From the NCBI RefSeq assembly GCF_002931055.1, contig NZ_PSXX01000001.1, positions 434,001 to 498,000 on the forward strand: a stretch of DNA of 64,000 nucleotides, given 5' to 3'. The stretch comes from Pseudoclavibacter sp. AY1H1 (GTDB lineage Bacteria > Actinomycetota > Actinomycetes > Actinomycetales > Microbacteriaceae). Positions 29,351-35,734 of the stretch are shown here, piece by piece (the first letter of the stretch is position 1; each line of letters starts with the position of its first letter). Below the pieces are notes generated by a model, which was not told the origin of the DNA, did no database searches, and saw nothing but the letters and a program-made list of their open reading frames with translations. A program made the position numbers and the translations under genes.

Positions 29351-29578
29351 GATGCCTCCAAAGCTTCAGTGATCTGCCGATCAGGACAATTAGAGCACGG
29401 GCACCGGATTCCCGTGTGCTTTCGGCGGTCAGGTTCGCCCTGCGCGTAGCAGTGTTTCACCCGCGTGACGACCCGGGGTCCGTCGTGGGCGCGTGAGATA
29501 CTGGCCGCGGTCGGCGAGCCGGGGGATTCTCGCCGCAGACGCTGACGCGCACGTGGTTGCGCAGGATGAGGAGTGTGC

Positions 29579-30862
29579 ATGGGTGGCAAGCTGCGGCGGA
29601 TGATCGCCGTCGGTCTCGGACGGAGCGCGCGCGGAGCGATGCGTCTCCGCGGAGGCGGCTCAGCAGTCCCCGGCAGAGTGGCGCTCGCCATCTCCCCGGA
29701 CTTCCTCGAGACGGCCGTGGCGAAGCTCCCGCTCGGCGTCATCTTCGTCTCCGGGTCGAACGGCAAGTCGACGACGACGCACTTCCTGACCCGCATGCTT
29801 CGGCGGCACGGGCTCAGGGTGTTCACGAACTCCTCCGGCGGCAACCTCCCGCAGGGCATCGCGTCGTCGATGCTCCCGGATGTCGACGTCAACGGCAACC
29901 TGCGAGCGGACATCGCTGTCCTCGAGGTCGACGAGGCCTACGGGCCCCGCCTCCTCCCGCACCTGCATCCACGCGGGGTGCTGCTCCTCAACGTGCAGGT
30001 CGATCAGCTGAACCGCTTCTACGACCCGTCTCGGGTCACTGAGTTCCTCAGGACCATCGCGGCCGCATGCGGCGACTTCAGCGTCCTGAACGCCGATGAC
30101 GCATCGCTTCGCGGACTTCCCGTCTCGCTGGATGCGCCGGTGACCTGGTTCGGGGTCGCACCTGAGCTCATCGAGCAGTCCCCGAATGGTCTCTCGAACT
30201 TCGATGACATCTCAGCCGCGAGCGTCGAGGTCGCCGCAGGCGAGCGCGCCGTGCAGGTCGTGGCACTGCAGGGGCGCGATGCGACGCTGCGGATCGGCGA
30301 CGAGGAGCTGGAGATCCGTCTCCCCGCGCGTGGCCTGCACTACGCGCTCGATGCTGCTGGTGCAGCGGCGACTGCTCAGCGCATCCTCGGCGATTCCTTC
30401 GTTCCCGCGCTTGTCGCGGAGGCGCTCGGCGAGTCGCAGACCGTGTACGGGCGTGGTGAGGTGATGAGCGTCCGCGGGGAGGACATCGAGATCATCATGA
30501 TGAAGAACCCGCCGAGCCTGCAGATGAACCTCGATGCGCTCGAGGAGGCTCCGGAGCAGGTGTTCGTCTCCGTCGACGAGGGAACCCCCGACCCGTCCTG
30601 GATCTTCGGTGCCGATCTCAGCCGCCTCGAGCACGTCGACGTTGTCTCCGGCACGAAGGCCTGGCAGATCGCGACGAGGCTCGGCTACGGCGACATTCCG
30701 GTCGGTCTCGTGGAGCCCAGCCTCGGGGAGGCGCTCGAGAAGTTCCTGGCACTGCCCAAGCCCAGCCGCGGCATGAAGACCATGATCGTCAACTACGAGC
30801 AGATGATGTCGATTCGCCGACGACTCGGGCAATCGGGTATCGAGGGGAAGGTCAACTCATGA
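29579..30862 (+). CDS. murT: MurT-like Mur ligase lacking the cysteine ribbon
   Basis: In the MurT-GatD complex MurT activates the D-Glu alpha-carboxyl of lipid II with ATP, and ammonia from GatD then amidates it. 427 aa. Mur-ligase ATP loop VSGSNGKSTT (57-66), VLEVDEAYGPRLLPHLHPRG, LLLNVQVDQLNRFYDPSRV, and the DUF1727 C-terminus with TPDPSWIFGADL (Asp339 likely aligns with the triad Asp of Staphylococcus MurT). The four-Cys zinc ribbon normally inserted after the central beta region is absent: the only Cys is Cys165, and residues 190-230 carry no Cys. GAGGAG precedes ATG 29579. Overlaps gatD by 4 bases. See findings for a possible altered reaction. Confidence 0.85.
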   Translation: MGGKLRRMIAVGLGRSARGAMRLRGGGSAVPGRVALAISPDFLETAVAKLPLGVIFVSGSNGKSTTTHFLTRMLRRHGLRVFTNSSGGNLPQGIASSMLPDVDVNGNLRADIAVLEVDEAYGPRLLPHLHPRGVLLLNVQVDQLNRFYDPSRVTEFLRTIAAACGDFSVLNADDASLRGLPVSLDAPVTWFGVAPELIEQSPNGLSNFDDISAASVEVAAGERAVQVVALQGRDATLRIGDEELEIRLPARGLHYALDAAGAAATAQRILGDSFVPALVAEALGESQTVYGRGEVMSVRGEDIEIIMMKNPPSLQMNLDALEEAPEQVFVSVDEGTPDPSWIFGADLSRLEHVDVVSGTKAWQIATRLGYGDIPVGLVEPSLGEALEKFLALPKPSRGMKTMIVNYEQMMSIRRRLGQSGIEGKVNS

Positions 30863-31617
30863 AGCTGCGAATCGCTCACCTCTACCCGGTGGAGCTCGGA
30901 ATCAACGGAGATGTCGGCAACGTCACGGTGCTCGCGAAGCGTGCGCGCGTGCGCGGCTTCGATGTCGAAGTGGTGAACGTCGGACGTGGGGCGGCCTCGC
31001 TGCCCGGCGACATCGACCTGCTGCACGTCGGCTCCGGCCCTCTTGCTGCCGTGCAGACGGTGCAGGCTGACGCGCTGCAGCACGCTGAGCAGCTCCGCGA
31101 CCTCGTCGCGGCTGGCCTGCCGCTGCTCGCGATCGGCGGAGGGTGGGAGCTGCTCGGATCGAGCATCACCCACGATGACGGCGAGCTCACCGGTCTCGGC
31201 GTCTTCGCCTCCAGGGCTGTCCGGGAGCCGGCGCAGAGCGTCGCGGAGACGGTCGTGCGCACCCCGGGTGGACTCCTCGCGGGGTTCGCGAACCACAATG
31301 CCGTCACCTCCCTCGACGCGGGGTCGGAGCCGCTCGGCGAGGTTGTCCGTGGCTTCGGCAACGGCGGCTCAGCTGCGGAGAACAGCGGAGCCGAGGGCGT
31401 GCAGCGCCTGGGCGCGATCGGCACGCACCTGCACGGCCCCATCCTGGCCTTGAACCCCACGCTGGCAGACCAGCTCCTGCAGCAGGCCGTGCATCGTCAC
31501 GATGCTGACCGCACGCTCGGCGACGGCGGAGCGGAACTGGAACGACTCGACGGCTGGTCGCAGAACGCACGCCACGCGTTGATGCGGAGAATCGGCGTGT
31601 CCGCTCCAGCGGTTTGA
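30859..31617 (+). CDS. gatD: GatD-like class I amidotransferase without the nucleophile Cys
   Basis: 252 aa, homologous to GatD, the glutaminase that supplies ammonia to MurT. The nucleophile elbow, normally LAICGGYQLLG, reads LAIGGGWELLG: codon 93 (31135-31137) is GGC, Gly, where Cys is expected. The His of the triad region is kept (IGTHLHGPIL, His192). So the protein should not hydrolyse glutamine by the known mechanism, yet the frame is intact and translationally coupled to murT (ATGA). It may be structural or may present another amine donor. Confidence 0.85.
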   Translation: MKLRIAHLYPVELGINGDVGNVTVLAKRARVRGFDVEVVNVGRGAASLPGDIDLLHVGSGPLAAVQTVQADALQHAEQLRDLVAAGLPLLAIGGGWELLGSSITHDDGELTGLGVFASRAVREPAQSVAETVVRTPGGLLAGFANHNAVTSLDAGSEPLGEVVRGFGNGGSAAENSGAEGVQRLGAIGTHLHGPILALNPTLADQLLQQAVHRHDADRTLGDGGAELERLDGWSQNARHALMRRIGVSAPAV

Positions 31618-31686: not shown

Positions 31687-32739
31687 TCAGCGGCGGCTGA
31701 AGCTCCGCGAGACGCGGGAGGTGAGTCCCGTCACGATCTCGTCGCCGACGGTTTCGCCCCACACCGCCCACTGCTCCGCGGTCGCCTCTCCCTGCGAGCC
31801 GTCGCCGAAGACGATGCAGGGTGCGCCCGCCGAGATGCCATCAGCATCGCTCGGGAGCGCGACGACCGTCTCGTCGACGCCCACCTCGACGACCGGTGCG
31901 ACGTGTCCATCGACAACCACGTAGGCGCCTGAGTCGGGGTCGGACTGGATACCGTCGCCGAAGCCCACGGCGATGCTCGCGAGGCCGTGGCGTGCATCCA
32001 GGACCGGGGCTCGCAGCTGCATGGCCGGCCTCAGCCCGAGGTCCGCCGCACTTCGATCGCCGAACGGCGAGATGCCGTAGGCGGCGATGCCGACCCTCAC
32101 GAGGTCGAAGTGCGCCTCGGGCAGATCGATGACGGCCGCGCTCGCTCCGAGATGGAGGAGCTCGAACTCCGCGCCGAGGCTTCTGGCCTCGTCGACGGCG
32201 GCCTCGAACAGGGCCGTCGATGCGAGGTCGGCACTGTGCGAGGTGTCAGAGAGATGGCTCCACGCGGCGACGACCTCGAGCTTGCCGAGCGACTGCAGCC
32301 TGAGGGCCTCCGTGACGAACTCGGCCCAGCGCGGCTGGTCGGCGCCCCCGCGGTGCAGGCCGGTGTCGATCTTGAGGTGCACTCGTGGTGTGCGCGCCGC
32401 GTCGCTCGCCGCAATCGCCTCCAGCTGCCAGAACGTCTGCACGCCGAGGTCGACTCGCGCTTCTGCCGCGGCCGCGAAGTCGGTGTCCTGGCCATGCATC
32501 CAGGCGAAGAGGGGTACCTCCACGCCTGCAGCGCGGAGATCGATCCCCGCGGTCGACTCCAGAACGCCGAAGGAGGAGACCCCAGCCTCCAGCCCCGTGC
32601 GCACGACCTCGTGCAGGCCGTGCCCATAGGCGTTCGACTTGACGGCAAGCATGAACTGCGAGCCGGAGGCAAGCTCCTTCAGGGCGCTGATGTTGTGGCT
32701 GATGGCCTCGAGATCGACGTGCGCCGTTGCGCGGCTCAT
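31687..32739 (-). CDS. alanine-racemase-like subunit with PLP lysine but Phe for catalytic Tyr
   Basis: 350 aa, fold-type III PLP racemase. The PLP-lysine motif is intact (VKSNAYGHG, Lys34), as are the other barrel ligands: Arg130 in KIDTGLHRGG, His162 in WSHLSD, Ser200 in GASAA, Arg215 and Tyr221 in VRVGIAAYG. In the C-terminal domain the catalytic Tyr (GYADG in normal enzymes) is Phe260 in VGFGDG, and the CMDQ motif has become GVDE. In alanine racemase that Tyr serves the active site of the partner subunit. Starts within the stop of the next gene upstream (ATGA), so the two are coupled. Confidence 0.88.
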   Translation of the reverse strand: MSRATAHVDLEAISHNISALKELASGSQFMLAVKSNAYGHGLHEVVRTGLEAGVSSFGVLESTAGIDLRAAGVEVPLFAWMHGQDTDFAAAAEARVDLGVQTFWQLEAIAASDAARTPRVHLKIDTGLHRGGADQPRWAEFVTEALRLQSLGKLEVVAAWSHLSDTSHSADLASTALFEAAVDEARSLGAEFELLHLGASAAVIDLPEAHFDLVRVGIAAYGISPFGDRSAADLGLRPAMQLRAPVLDARHGLASIAVGFGDGIQSDPDSGAYVVVDGHVAPVVEVGVDETVVALPSDADGISAGAPCIVFGDGSQGEATAEQWAVWGETVGDEIVTGLTSRVSRSFSRR

Positions 32740-33434
32740 GTGTAGCTCCGTTCGAATCGGGGACTCATCCGGCTCGCGATGGCCGCAGCTCGCAGGCCGG
32801 TCGCATGCTGCCAGTCGAGGATGCTCGGCTCGCCGACGGCCGGGTCGCCGAAGAGGGTCGCCAGCTCGCCCGGCTGCGCTTCTGCGCCGAGCAGGTCGAC
32901 GGAGAACTGGTCCATCGAGATGGCGCCGACGATGGTGCGCGTCTTCCCGCCGATGAGCACGGATGCGGTGTTCGAGGCACGGCGGACAACCCCGTGGGCG
33001 TAGCCGACGCCGACGAGTGCGAGCTGCGTCGCTTCCGTCGTGACGTAGCTGTACCCGTAGGACACGCCCTCGCCGGCTCCGACATCCTTCACGGCCAGGA
33101 TCTCGGCGCTCACGCGCATCGCGGGCCGGTAGGCGCGATCCGTGAGCCCGAACAGGGAGCCGCCCGTGATCCTGTCGGAGTTCACGGAGTCCGCGTCGAG
33201 CAGCTTCGTGCTCAGATGCGACAGGGAGGCGCGCTCGAGCCCAGGGGAGACGATGAAGCCGTCGTATCCCTCGCTGTCGAGTGCTTCTGCGACGCGGAGA
33301 GCGCCATGGCCGTAGGCGTCTGCGCGCAGGTCGGCGTAGCTGGCCGTCTCCGAACCGAGGAGTCGGGTCGAGTTCTCGCGGATCGCGCGGAGGTCGATGT
33401 GGATGCGTCTGCGCACCGGCTCGGGAGTCTGCAC
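32736..33434 (-). CDS. short alanine-racemase-like subunit with catalytic Tyr but no PLP lysine
   Basis: 232 aa against about 370 for the family. N-terminus aligns (IHIDLRAIREN) but the PLP-lysine motif reads LRADAYGHG with Arg37 for Lys, and most of the barrel between residues about 62 and 85 is deleted. The C-terminal domain is well kept: RPAMRVSAEI, VSYGYSY, VGYAHG with the catalytic Tyr145, and SMDQF with Met174. It cannot bind PLP by itself. Together with the following gene it could supply the Tyr side of one composite active site. GTG start at 33434 behind GAGAGGG. First gene of a two-gene operon. Confidence 0.82.
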   Translation of the reverse strand: MQTPEPVRRRIHIDLRAIRENSTRLLGSETASYADLRADAYGHGALRVAEALDSEGYDGFIVSPGLERASLSHLSTKLLDADSVNSDRITGGSLFGLTDRAYRPAMRVSAEILAVKDVGAGEGVSYGYSYVTTEATQLALVGVGYAHGVVRRASNTASVLIGGKTRTIVGAISMDQFSVDLLGAEAQPGELATLFGDPAVGEPSILDWQHATGLRAAAIASRMSPRFERSYT

Positions 33435-33634: not shown

Positions 33635-35734
33635 GTGGCGAATTCCGGAGACGCATACTCAGCCAGACACCTCTCGGTGCTCGACGGGCTCGATGCGGTC
33701 CGGAAGCGGCCGGGCATGTACATCGGCTCGACCGACTCGCGTGGCCTCATGCACTGCCTGTGGGAGATCATCGACAACTCGGTCGACGAGGCCCTTGCCG
33801 GTCACGGCTCACGCATCCGAGTCCAGCTGCACAGCGATGGATCCGTCAGCGTCGATGACGACGGGCGAGGCGTCCCCGTCGACATCGAGCCGAAGACCGG
33901 TCTCAGCGGCGTCGAGGTCGTCTTCACCAAGCTCCACGCGGGTGGCAAGTTCGGCGCAAGCAACTACGGGTCGGCGGGAGGCCTCCACGGTGTCGGTGCC
34001 TCGGTGGTGAACGCGCTCTCCGCGCGCCTCGACGTCGAGGTCGACCGGGGCGGGAAGACCTACGCGATGAGCTTCCGGCGCGGCGAGCCAGGCATCTTCG
34101 AGGATGGTGCCGGCGGGCCCAGCCCGACGTCGAACTTCGTCCCCTTCACGGATACGAGCGAGCTCCGCGTCGTGGGCAAAGCGAAGCGCGGCGTCTCCGG
34201 CACACGGGTTCGCTATTGGGCTGACCCGCAGGTGTTCATCCGCGAGGCGAGCTTCCAGACCAACGACCTCGCCGAGCGCGCGAGGCAGACGGCGTTCCTG
34301 GTACCAGGCCTCGAGATGGTCATCGAGGATGCCCGTGACGAGTCGGTCGCGCCCACGACGCAGCAGTTCCGCTTCGACGGCGGGATCACGGAGTTCGCCG
34401 ACTTCCTGGCACCGGACGCTCCGACGACGGACACCTGGCGCATCGAGGGGAGCGGGGAATTCACGGAGACCATCCCGGTGCTCGACGACGAGGGCCTCCA
34501 GCTCGTGACGAAGGAAGTCGCGCGCACGATGCACGTCGATCTCGCGTTGCGCTGGGGCACCGGCTACGAGACGACCGTGAAGAGCTTCGTGAACATCATC
34601 TCGACGCCCAAGGGCGGCTCTCACCTCGCCGGGTTCGAGCAGGGGATGCTCCGTTTCTTCCGGGCAGAGGTCGAGAAGAATGCCCGACGCCTCAAGGTCG
34701 GCAACGACAAGCTCGACAAGGACGACGTCCTGGCGGGCCTCACCGCCGTCGTGACGGTCCGCATCCCGGAGCCCCAGTTCGAGGGGCAGACGAAGGAGGT
34801 CCTGGGAACGCCAGCGGCCAGGGCGATCGTCCAGAAGGCCGTGACGGCAGGCCTGACCGAGAAGTTCTCGTCGACCAAGCGCCAGGACAAGGCCGAGGCC
34901 AACCTCCTGCTCGACAAGGTCGTGCAGGAGATGAAGTCGCGCCTCTCCGCTCGCGCCCACAAGGAGACGCAGCGACGCAAGAACGCACTCGAGAGCTCCT
35001 CGCTGCCGACCAAGCTCGTCGACTGCCGATCGAACGATGTGGCGCAGAGCGAGCTCTTCATCGTCGAGGGTGACTCCGCGCTCGGCACCGCGAAGCCGGC
35101 GAGGAACTCGGAGTTCCAGGCGCTCCTCCCCATCCGCGGCAAGATCCTCAACGTGCAGAAGGCCTCGGTCTCCGACATGCTCTCCAACTCGGAGTGCGCG
35201 TCGATCATCCAGGTCGTCGGCGCAGGGTCGGGGCGCAGCTTCGACATCGGCCAGGCTCGCTACGGCAAGGTCATCCTGATGAGCGACGCCGACGTCGACG
35301 GCGCGCACATCAGGACGCTGCTGCTCACGCTCTTCTTCCGCTACATGAGGCCCATGCTCGACGCGGGTCGTGTCTTCGCGGCCGTGCCGCCCCTGCACAG
35401 GGTGGTCATCATGCATGCGGGCAGGAAGCCCAACGAGACCGTCTACACCTACTCCGAGAAGGAACTGCACACGCTGCTCTCGAAGCTCGAGAAGCAGGGG
35501 AAGCGGTACCAGGATCCGATCCAGCGCTACAAGGGCCTCGGCGAGATGGATGAGGACCAGCTCTGGAACACGACCATGGACCCGAGCGCGCGCCTGCTCA
35601 GGCGCGTCACGAACGCGGACGCGCACAACGCCGAGCGCGTGTTCGATCTGCTCATGGGCAGCGAGGTCGCGCCTCGCAAGGAGTTCATCATCGAAGGATC
35701 CGAGCACGTGGCTCGGGCGGACATCGACGTCTAG
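33635..35734 (+). CDS. parE: DNA topoisomerase IV subunit B
   Basis: ATPase subunit of a type IIA topoisomerase. 699 aa: GHKL ATPase (WEIIDNSVDEAL with the Mg-binding Asn; GGLHGVGASVVNALS), transducer domain, and TOPRIM domain with FIVEGDSALG and DADVDGAHIRTL metal motifs, then YKGLGEMDEDQLW. GTG start at 33635 behind GAGGAC; no longer in-frame start is better. Converges on the matching A subunit, an arrangement that suggests paired function rather than gyrase, whose genes normally lie by the origin. Confidence 0.93.
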   Translation: MANSGDAYSARHLSVLDGLDAVRKRPGMYIGSTDSRGLMHCLWEIIDNSVDEALAGHGSRIRVQLHSDGSVSVDDDGRGVPVDIEPKTGLSGVEVVFTKLHAGGKFGASNYGSAGGLHGVGASVVNALSARLDVEVDRGGKTYAMSFRRGEPGIFEDGAGGPSPTSNFVPFTDTSELRVVGKAKRGVSGTRVRYWADPQVFIREASFQTNDLAERARQTAFLVPGLEMVIEDARDESVAPTTQQFRFDGGITEFADFLAPDAPTTDTWRIEGSGEFTETIPVLDDEGLQLVTKEVARTMHVDLALRWGTGYETTVKSFVNIISTPKGGSHLAGFEQGMLRFFRAEVEKNARRLKVGNDKLDKDDVLAGLTAVVTVRIPEPQFEGQTKEVLGTPAARAIVQKAVTAGLTEKFSSTKRQDKAEANLLLDKVVQEMKSRLSARAHKETQRRKNALESSSLPTKLVDCRSNDVAQSELFIVEGDSALGTAKPARNSEFQALLPIRGKILNVQKASVSDMLSNSECASIIQVVGAGSGRSFDIGQARYGKVILMSDADVDGAHIRTLLLTLFFRYMRPMLDAGRVFAAVPPLHRVVIMHAGRKPNETVYTYSEKELHTLLSKLEKQGKRYQDPIQRYKGLGEMDEDQLWNTTMDPSARLLRRVTNADAHNAERVFDLLMGSEVAPRKEFIIEGSEHVARADIDV

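Follow-up and report, generated by a model that had tools for sequence, protein, structure and literature searches.

Two overlapping genes of Pseudoclavibacter sp. AY1H1 very probably encode the subunits of an obligate heterodimer: a PLP-dependent racemase of amino acids that has the alanine racemase (Alr) fold and would contain only one active site (rough probability 0.87, as judged from sequence). Both genes lie on the minus strand of the window, i.e. the whole stretch of 64,000 nucleotides that was analysed, and subunit A (the 'donor') is located upstream of subunit B (the 'barrel') in the order of transcription:

32736 to 33434, minus strand: subunit A, 232 aa, GTG start, a barrel stub without the PLP lysine plus a complete Ala_racemase_C domain.
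31687 to 32739, minus strand: subunit B, 350 aa, ATG start, a complete Ala_racemase_N domain with the PLP lysine.
32736 to 32739, minus strand: ATGA overlap between the stop codon of A and the start codon of B (the plus strand reads TCAT).

A preliminary description of this DNA had reported both reading frames and their ATGA overlap, and they were found where it placed them; the strand, which it did not give, is the minus strand. The same gap of -4 is found in 18 of 25 A-B loci, with starts chosen by program, and translational coupling of A and B through ATGA is likely. The Ala_racemase_N model (PF01168, 169 bits) matches B over its entire length (positions 1–220 of 220), in the barrel domain that includes the PLP lysine K34, and the Ala_racemase_C domain of B begins at model position 29, i.e. 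lacks the first 28 positions. Conversely, A matches Ala_racemase_N only over positions 1–54 of 220, which agrees with the barrel deletion described previously, and matches Ala_racemase_C over positions 1–127 of 127 (PF00842, 107 bits), with the catalytic tyrosine Y126, M174 and the MDQ motif present. With the NCBIfam model TIGR00492 (alr, cut-off 168 bits), B scores above the cut-off (188.5) and A below it (118.3).

The residues of both chains were assigned by alignment to the Alr of Streptomyces lavendulae and with the residue list found in the available text of PMC3485190:

33324 to 33326, minus strand: Arg37 of A (CGC), which replaces the PLP lysine.
33057 to 33059, minus strand: Tyr126 of A (TAC), in VSYG, equivalent to the catalytic Tyr265 (Geobacillus) or Tyr270' (S. 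lavendulae).
33000 to 33002, minus strand: Tyr145 of A (TAC), the tyrosine of GYADG, equivalent to Tyr284 (Geobacillus) or Tyr289 (S. lavendulae).
32910 to 32915, minus strand: Met174-Asp175 of SMDQ in A, equivalent to Met312-Asp313.
32638 to 32640, minus strand: Lys34 of B (AAG), the PLP lysine, equivalent to Lys39 (Lys38 in S. lavendulae).
31960 to 31962, minus strand: Phe260 of B (TTC), at the position of Tyr284 and not at that of the catalytic tyrosine.
31741 to 31743, minus strand: Asp333 of B (GAC), at the position of the gate Tyr354 (Geobacillus) or Tyr361 (S. lavendulae).

The alignment to S. lavendulae also equates Y38, R130 and R215 of B with Tyr42, Arg136 and Arg224, respectively, and reveals that the VSYG segment carrying Tyr270' is deleted from B. 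The codons given earlier for K34 and F260 of B and for R37 and Y145 of A are right, as are the PLP lysine of B, its replacement by arginine in A and the SMDQ of A. It had also been recognized that B has lost the catalytic tyrosine and that A has kept it, but these events had been assigned to F260 and Y145, two positions that the numbering of the S. lavendulae and Geobacillus enzymes rules out: the loss in B is that of the VSYG segment and the residue kept by A is Y126. As 12 of the 45 relatives of B that are readable at the F260 position still have a tyrosine there, the deletion and not F260 is the key loss of B. Y126 is invariant in both A alignments examined, and the invariant residues of A include the donor set Y126, R151 and M174. 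The corrected assignment makes the observation of complementary losses stronger than first stated.

In known Alr, the active site is shared, Lys39 being provided by one subunit and Tyr265' by the other (PMC3485190 and PMC3245724, in the parts available). As these residues come from different subunits, one complete site, made of the barrel of B and the donor domain of A, is possible whereas the other is not. In sequence, the share of B comprises the barrel, the PLP lysine K34, R130, H162 and R215, and that of A comprises Y126, R151 and M174-D175. The mirror-image counterpart is impossible: the lysine and a full barrel are both missing from A, and the catalytic tyrosine is missing from B. The following model can be drawn: A would dock on B in the place taken by the second protomer in an ordinary Alr dimer, the two bases on opposite sides of PLP would be Y126 and K34, and the translational coupling through ATGA would hold the A:B ratio near 1:1. 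The pairing proposed in the preliminary description, with one composite site complete and the other doubly dead, thus gains support from the complementary losses, the adjacency of the genes, the natural fusions and the genomes that carry split genes only.

The two genes recur across the family. A was used as query in 199 genomes of Microbacteriaceae, and the A-like, unusual or tandem Alr loci were then classified as A (C domain complete but barrel not, to which the lysine-less but barrel-bearing genes of G147 and G008 were added by hand), B (full barrel and a C domain without the VSYG stretch) or complete (both). The co-occurrence that the preliminary description had suggested looking for extends to 48 loci, one per genome, in 27 genera, with 48 A genes and 47 B genes. 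Each of the 47 B genes immediately follows an A in the same orientation, an arrangement that the class definitions do not impose; the sole A without a B is that of G012, whose contig breaks off after the first part of a B. Neither a complete copy nor a B without an A was found within the A-bearing loci. The PLP lysine is absent from all A (0/48) and present in all B (47/47), and an arginine replaces it in 36 of the 48 A genes (the position is empty in G084, and the letter seen in G001 is an alignment artefact). The catalytic tyrosine is found in 48/48 A and in 0/46 readable B, an absence partly built into the tally because class B is defined by the missing VSYG; the B of G177 ends before this point, and that of G112 ends soon after it, with the deletion visible. 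Catalytic lysine and tyrosine are therefore never found in one polypeptide (48/48 A without the former, 46/46 readable B without the latter). The equivalent of Met312 is present in 48/48 A. The gate residue 354 is acidic in all 45 readable B (Asp in 28, Glu in 17), versus Tyr354 in 44/44 complete housekeeping copies, which all have the lysine and for which the catalytic tyrosine was a selection criterion. These tallies are not fully blind, owing to the class definitions and the two hand assignments, whereas the Pfam census of 85 genera described below is.

Of 80 loci from named records, 21 with an A-B pair were retained as the named set; L059, whose B is cut off, and 58 loci, mostly from Streptomyces and with matches mostly starting near the C domain of A, were left out. 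The named loci belong to Pseudoclavibacter, Leifsonia, Agreia, Frigoribacterium, Gulosibacter and MAGs. Their B all have the lysine and an acidic residue 354 (21/21 each), and their A have Arg (19), Ala (1) or no readable motif (1, L053) at the lysine position. Outside the family (139 of 149 genomes), none of the matches listed to the A profile lies in a frame shorter than 353 aa.

The census, which was not seeded with A, used the PF00842 model and covered 85 genomes, each representing one genus code. It yielded 26 separate B-type C domains (25 partial ones and that of G037), each adjoining a complete C domain. The acidic-gate pair is present in 27 of the 85 genera: 25 direct cases, G012 (contig end) and G015, in which the C domain of B escapes Pfam detection. 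Split housekeeping enzymes occur in four (G020, G049, G073 and G077), and either split kind in 29 of 85. The single C domain of G009 starts at position 17. Nine genera carry adjacent pairs of complete alr genes (G004, G007, G011, G026, G031, G034, G035, G040 and G071). In tandem complete pairs (L033, L034, L244–L250 and L142), the first copy has Tyr354 and the second Asp or Glu at this position, which makes the second copies candidates for a complete racemase with the specificity of the A-B pair.

Both A and B are under purifying selection. In the 10 pairwise comparisons made for each gene between the window and four close Pseudoclavibacter records, the NG86 dN/dS ranges from 0.062 to 0.102 for A and from 0.082 to 0.148 for B, and is lower for A in 9 of the 10 pairs. 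These four records (L042–L045) all keep a 232-aa A, a 350-aa B and the ATGA overlap, so that the decay of the short gene in sister species, which the preliminary description had raised, was not found; in L053, a distant MAG named Pseudoclavibacter, both A and B are open. AlphaFold2 predicts that both chains fold confidently as Alr (22-row alignments; pLDDT 90.3 and pTM 0.87 for A, pLDDT 91.2 and pTM 0.89 for B), and the best Foldseek matches of the A and B models are the S. lavendulae Alr structures 1vfh and 1vft, respectively.

In the window's genome, a 630-aa natural fusion (L001:295-2187, minus strand, contig C12) is encoded between glmS and tsaB. Its first half is a barrel that contains VVKANAYGHG and Tyr354 and is devoid of VSYG, and its second half is a lysine-less stub followed by a C domain with VSYG and AMDQ. 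This fused Tyr354 enzyme at the glmS-tsaB locus is probably the housekeeping alanine racemase. Fusions were found in 10 genomes (G000, G073, G188 and G136 of genus code g1; G020, G100 and G161 of g21; G049, G119 and G174 of g50), the housekeeping setting being checked in the window's own genome. Besides L001, the fusion loci are L252, L253, L254, L255, L256, L174, L133, L179 and L181. The g50 fusions are devoid of a barrel stub in the donor half, which is followed by TsaE in the same frame (above the cut-off for G049). Three putative Agreia genomes (G140, G077 and G192) carry a housekeeping pair that is unfused and has B ahead of A.

Ala_racemase_C and Ala_racemase_N domains were counted in 21 genomes picked as informative and not at random. 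Eleven genomes, eight from this set (G136, G020, G100, G161, G049, G119, G174 and G140), one from the census (G077) and two others (G192 and G015), have only split Ala_racemase_C genes, i.e. no complete Alr by this domain, and the sole system of G015 is one window-type pair. The D-Ala-D-Ala ligase Ddl is above the cut-off in 11/11 of these genomes and the D-amino acid transaminase Dat in 0/11, with weaker class IV transaminase matches in 10/11; for this reason, the split enzymes probably make D-Ala there. The weaker Ala_racemase_N matches present in all 21 genomes count against this argument. Likewise, three g50 genomes each encode one extra Ala_racemase_N protein without Ala_racemase_C (91–97 bits, frames of 362–395 aa):

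G049, C1, 1119628 to 1120299: Ala_racemase_N protein.
G119, C1, 1168504 to 1169175: Ala_racemase_N protein.
G174, C13, 280707 to 281378: Ala_racemase_N protein.

In a 0.93-Mb single-contig genome, the only Ala_racemase_C gene lies in a split pair (L259:3726-5646, plus strand), with a gatD-like gene adjoining. The window's genome also encodes a third, complete and distant Alr-like protein (L003, C5:37370-38452) beside apparent IclR-type regulators, perhaps with a catabolic role. As this gene and the fused one are present, the A-B pair need not be essential in that genome.

Other explanations of the pair can be weighed against these data. B retains the whole barrel and the PLP contacts, removal of Tyr265 reportedly turns the Geobacillus Alr into an aldolase and Tyr-less Alr are said to have side activities, so that B might act as a homodimeric PLP aldolase or transaminase, A being a separate regulator or chaperone. 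This is unlikely: A adjoins B in all 26 census cases and has the lower dN/dS in 9/10 pairs, its invariant residues include the donor residues Y126, R151 and M174, and natural fusions join both halves in one chain. Even less probable is that A modulates another Alr, such as a complete paralogue or the fused enzyme; other Alr genes are indeed present in the window's genome, but A adjoins B in 47/47 loci readable for both, with the 4-base overlap in 18/25, and G015 has no Ala_racemase_C gene besides the pair.

A catalytically silent PLP-binding pair, serving as PLP carrier or sensor, has nothing specific in its favour and is very improbable, since both acid-base residues and their partners are retained and there are Ddl-bearing genomes that have split genes only. 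The deletions in both A and B could suggest degenerating duplicates or an assembly artefact, which has next to no probability: no stop codon interrupts any of the listed matches to A, 11 genomes have only split Ala_racemase_C genes, dN/dS values of 0.06–0.15 together with the confident AlphaFold2 folds rule out a pair of pseudogenes, and the presence of the pattern in 48 genomes rules out a sequencing frameshift. Its recurrence in 48 genomes and 27 genera under such dN/dS argues against chance or decay, and the obligate A-B heterodimer with one site remains the favoured reading.

The route from tandem to split pair is largely visible in relatives, which include complete tandems and decayed forms; the lysine-less A genes of G147 (Ser in place of Lys) and G008 (Thr in place of Lys), in which most of the barrel is left, are likely evolutionary intermediates. 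It would begin with a tandem duplication of alr, after which the Tyr354 gate of the downstream copy would change to Asp or Glu, each copy would reciprocally lose one site and the unused barrel would be deleted. A tree of barrels was computed from 107 of 116 rows, after removal of the A barrel of G008 and of eight third-type rows. One of its branches (support 99) separates the acidic-gate racemases, whether complete or split, from all others, and the Asp group and the Glu group each include complete copies. The best tree implies three changes for B and six for all split states. A tree in which all split B are kept in one group is 18.4 log units worse, yet a single origin is not rejected (p-AU 0.246), so that several origins are claimed only from the differing architectures and barrel groups. 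The fused and putative Agreia housekeeping barrels are placed among housekeeping copies, apart from the acidic-gate group, and those of Agreia group with the first copies of the tandem-bearing G026 and G011 (support 91). In the donor-domain tree, weakly resolved owing to few columns and with many open forks, the donor of the putative Agreia housekeeping pair is found within a group of complete Asp-gate copies (support 97). From these placements, the donor would derive from the downstream copy in Agreia and from the upstream copy in window-type pairs, which suggests that the tandem was resolved in opposite ways.

The window-type pair belongs to a conserved block (sigA, murT-like, gatD-like, A-B, type II topoisomerase subunits), each family of which is present in 19–22 of 22 loci (window and 21 named). 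The conserved neighbours in the window are:

29573 to 30862, plus strand: MurT-like Mur ligase (95.9 bits, NCBIfam cut-off 800).
30859 to 31617, plus strand: GatD-like glutamine amidotransferase (100.5 bits, NCBIfam cut-off 450).
33635 to 35734, plus strand: type II topoisomerase subunit B (gyrB/parE family), outside the system.

Group-B peptidoglycan with a D-diamino acid in its bridge is typical of the Microbacteriaceae, and the MurT/GatD-like pair is perhaps a ligase that uses a different amino donor in this peptidoglycan. According to the available text of PMC3485190, the Tyr354 gate helps restrict Alr to alanine, and Lyr/Bar enzymes lack it. The acid found instead in B (D333 in the window) could hold a positively charged side chain of the substrate. 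This gate and the proximity of the murT/gatD-like genes make it probable that the window-type pair acts, at least in part, on an amino acid other than alanine; the first candidate, held at a little short of even odds, is a diamino acid destined for group-B peptidoglycan. No literature specific to the substrate of this group was recognized in the papers searched. G015, whose only pair has an acidic gate and adjoins a gatD-like gene, argues for a supply of D-Ala by such pairs as well, or for D-Ala being obtained elsewhere.

Alanine racemase, a drug target that most bacteria cannot do without, is a textbook example of a homodimer. The A-B pair shares with homodimeric Alr (PF01168 and PF00842; the closest solved structures are 1vfh and 1vft of S. 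lavendulae) the fold, the PLP lysine, the catalytic tyrosine, Arg136/Arg219 and a site between the barrel and the partner's C domain. However, known Alr have one gene and two equivalent sites, whereas A-B has two genes and one predicted site, one barrel being nearly gone, the tyrosine segment being gone from the other chain and Tyr354 being replaced by Asp. Engineered fragmentary Alr, and intersubunit complementation or dominance among Lys and Tyr mutants of Alr, are said to indicate that the site needs two chains and that different ones can assemble; these are laboratory constructs, whereas A-B is natural and widespread. Heterodimers of an active and a dead paralogue are known for trypanosome deoxyhypusine synthase, AdoMetDC-prozyme, serine palmitoyltransferase LCB1/LCB2 and archaeal tRNA-splicing endonucleases, which likewise reflect duplication followed by a division of labour between subunits, but these are other enzymes and none is an Alr. 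Lyr/Bar, described as dimers of one chain whereas A-B has two different chains, resemble B in being devoid of the Tyr354 gate. They have Thr or Ala at 354 and Asn after the equivalent of Arg136 (PMC3485190, available text), whereas B has Asp333 and Arg130-Gly131; by these residues B falls outside Lyr/Bar, Asp333 being neither Thr nor Ala and Gly131 not being Asn. No heterodimeric, split or pseudoenzyme Alr was found in the open PMC literature searched, in the text available, which is weak evidence of absence. The pair represents a genuine and conserved arrangement of an enzyme already known, and this literature search found no description of it.

Taken as a whole, these data can be read jointly, if tentatively and with the odds leaning against the combination: within a single actinobacterial family, an essential homodimer of cell-wall synthesis would have repeatedly become a one-site enzyme (A-B, B-A, fusions, and the g50 barrel with barrel-less donor and TsaE), the same tandem being resolved in both directions, and the acidic-gate pair would be the missing D-diamino-acid racemase of group-B peptidoglycan, whose product the MurT/GatD-like ligase would use. 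A one-site Alr that is apparently the sole racemase of its family in some genomes raises the question of why there are two equivalent sites elsewhere, and the A-B pair would offer a clean single-site system for kinetics. The series of complete tandems, decayed barrels, split pairs and fusions would allow a direct test of ratchet-like evolution of heteromers. If the acidic-gate pair makes D-diamino acids, a gap in the synthesis of group-B peptidoglycan would be filled.
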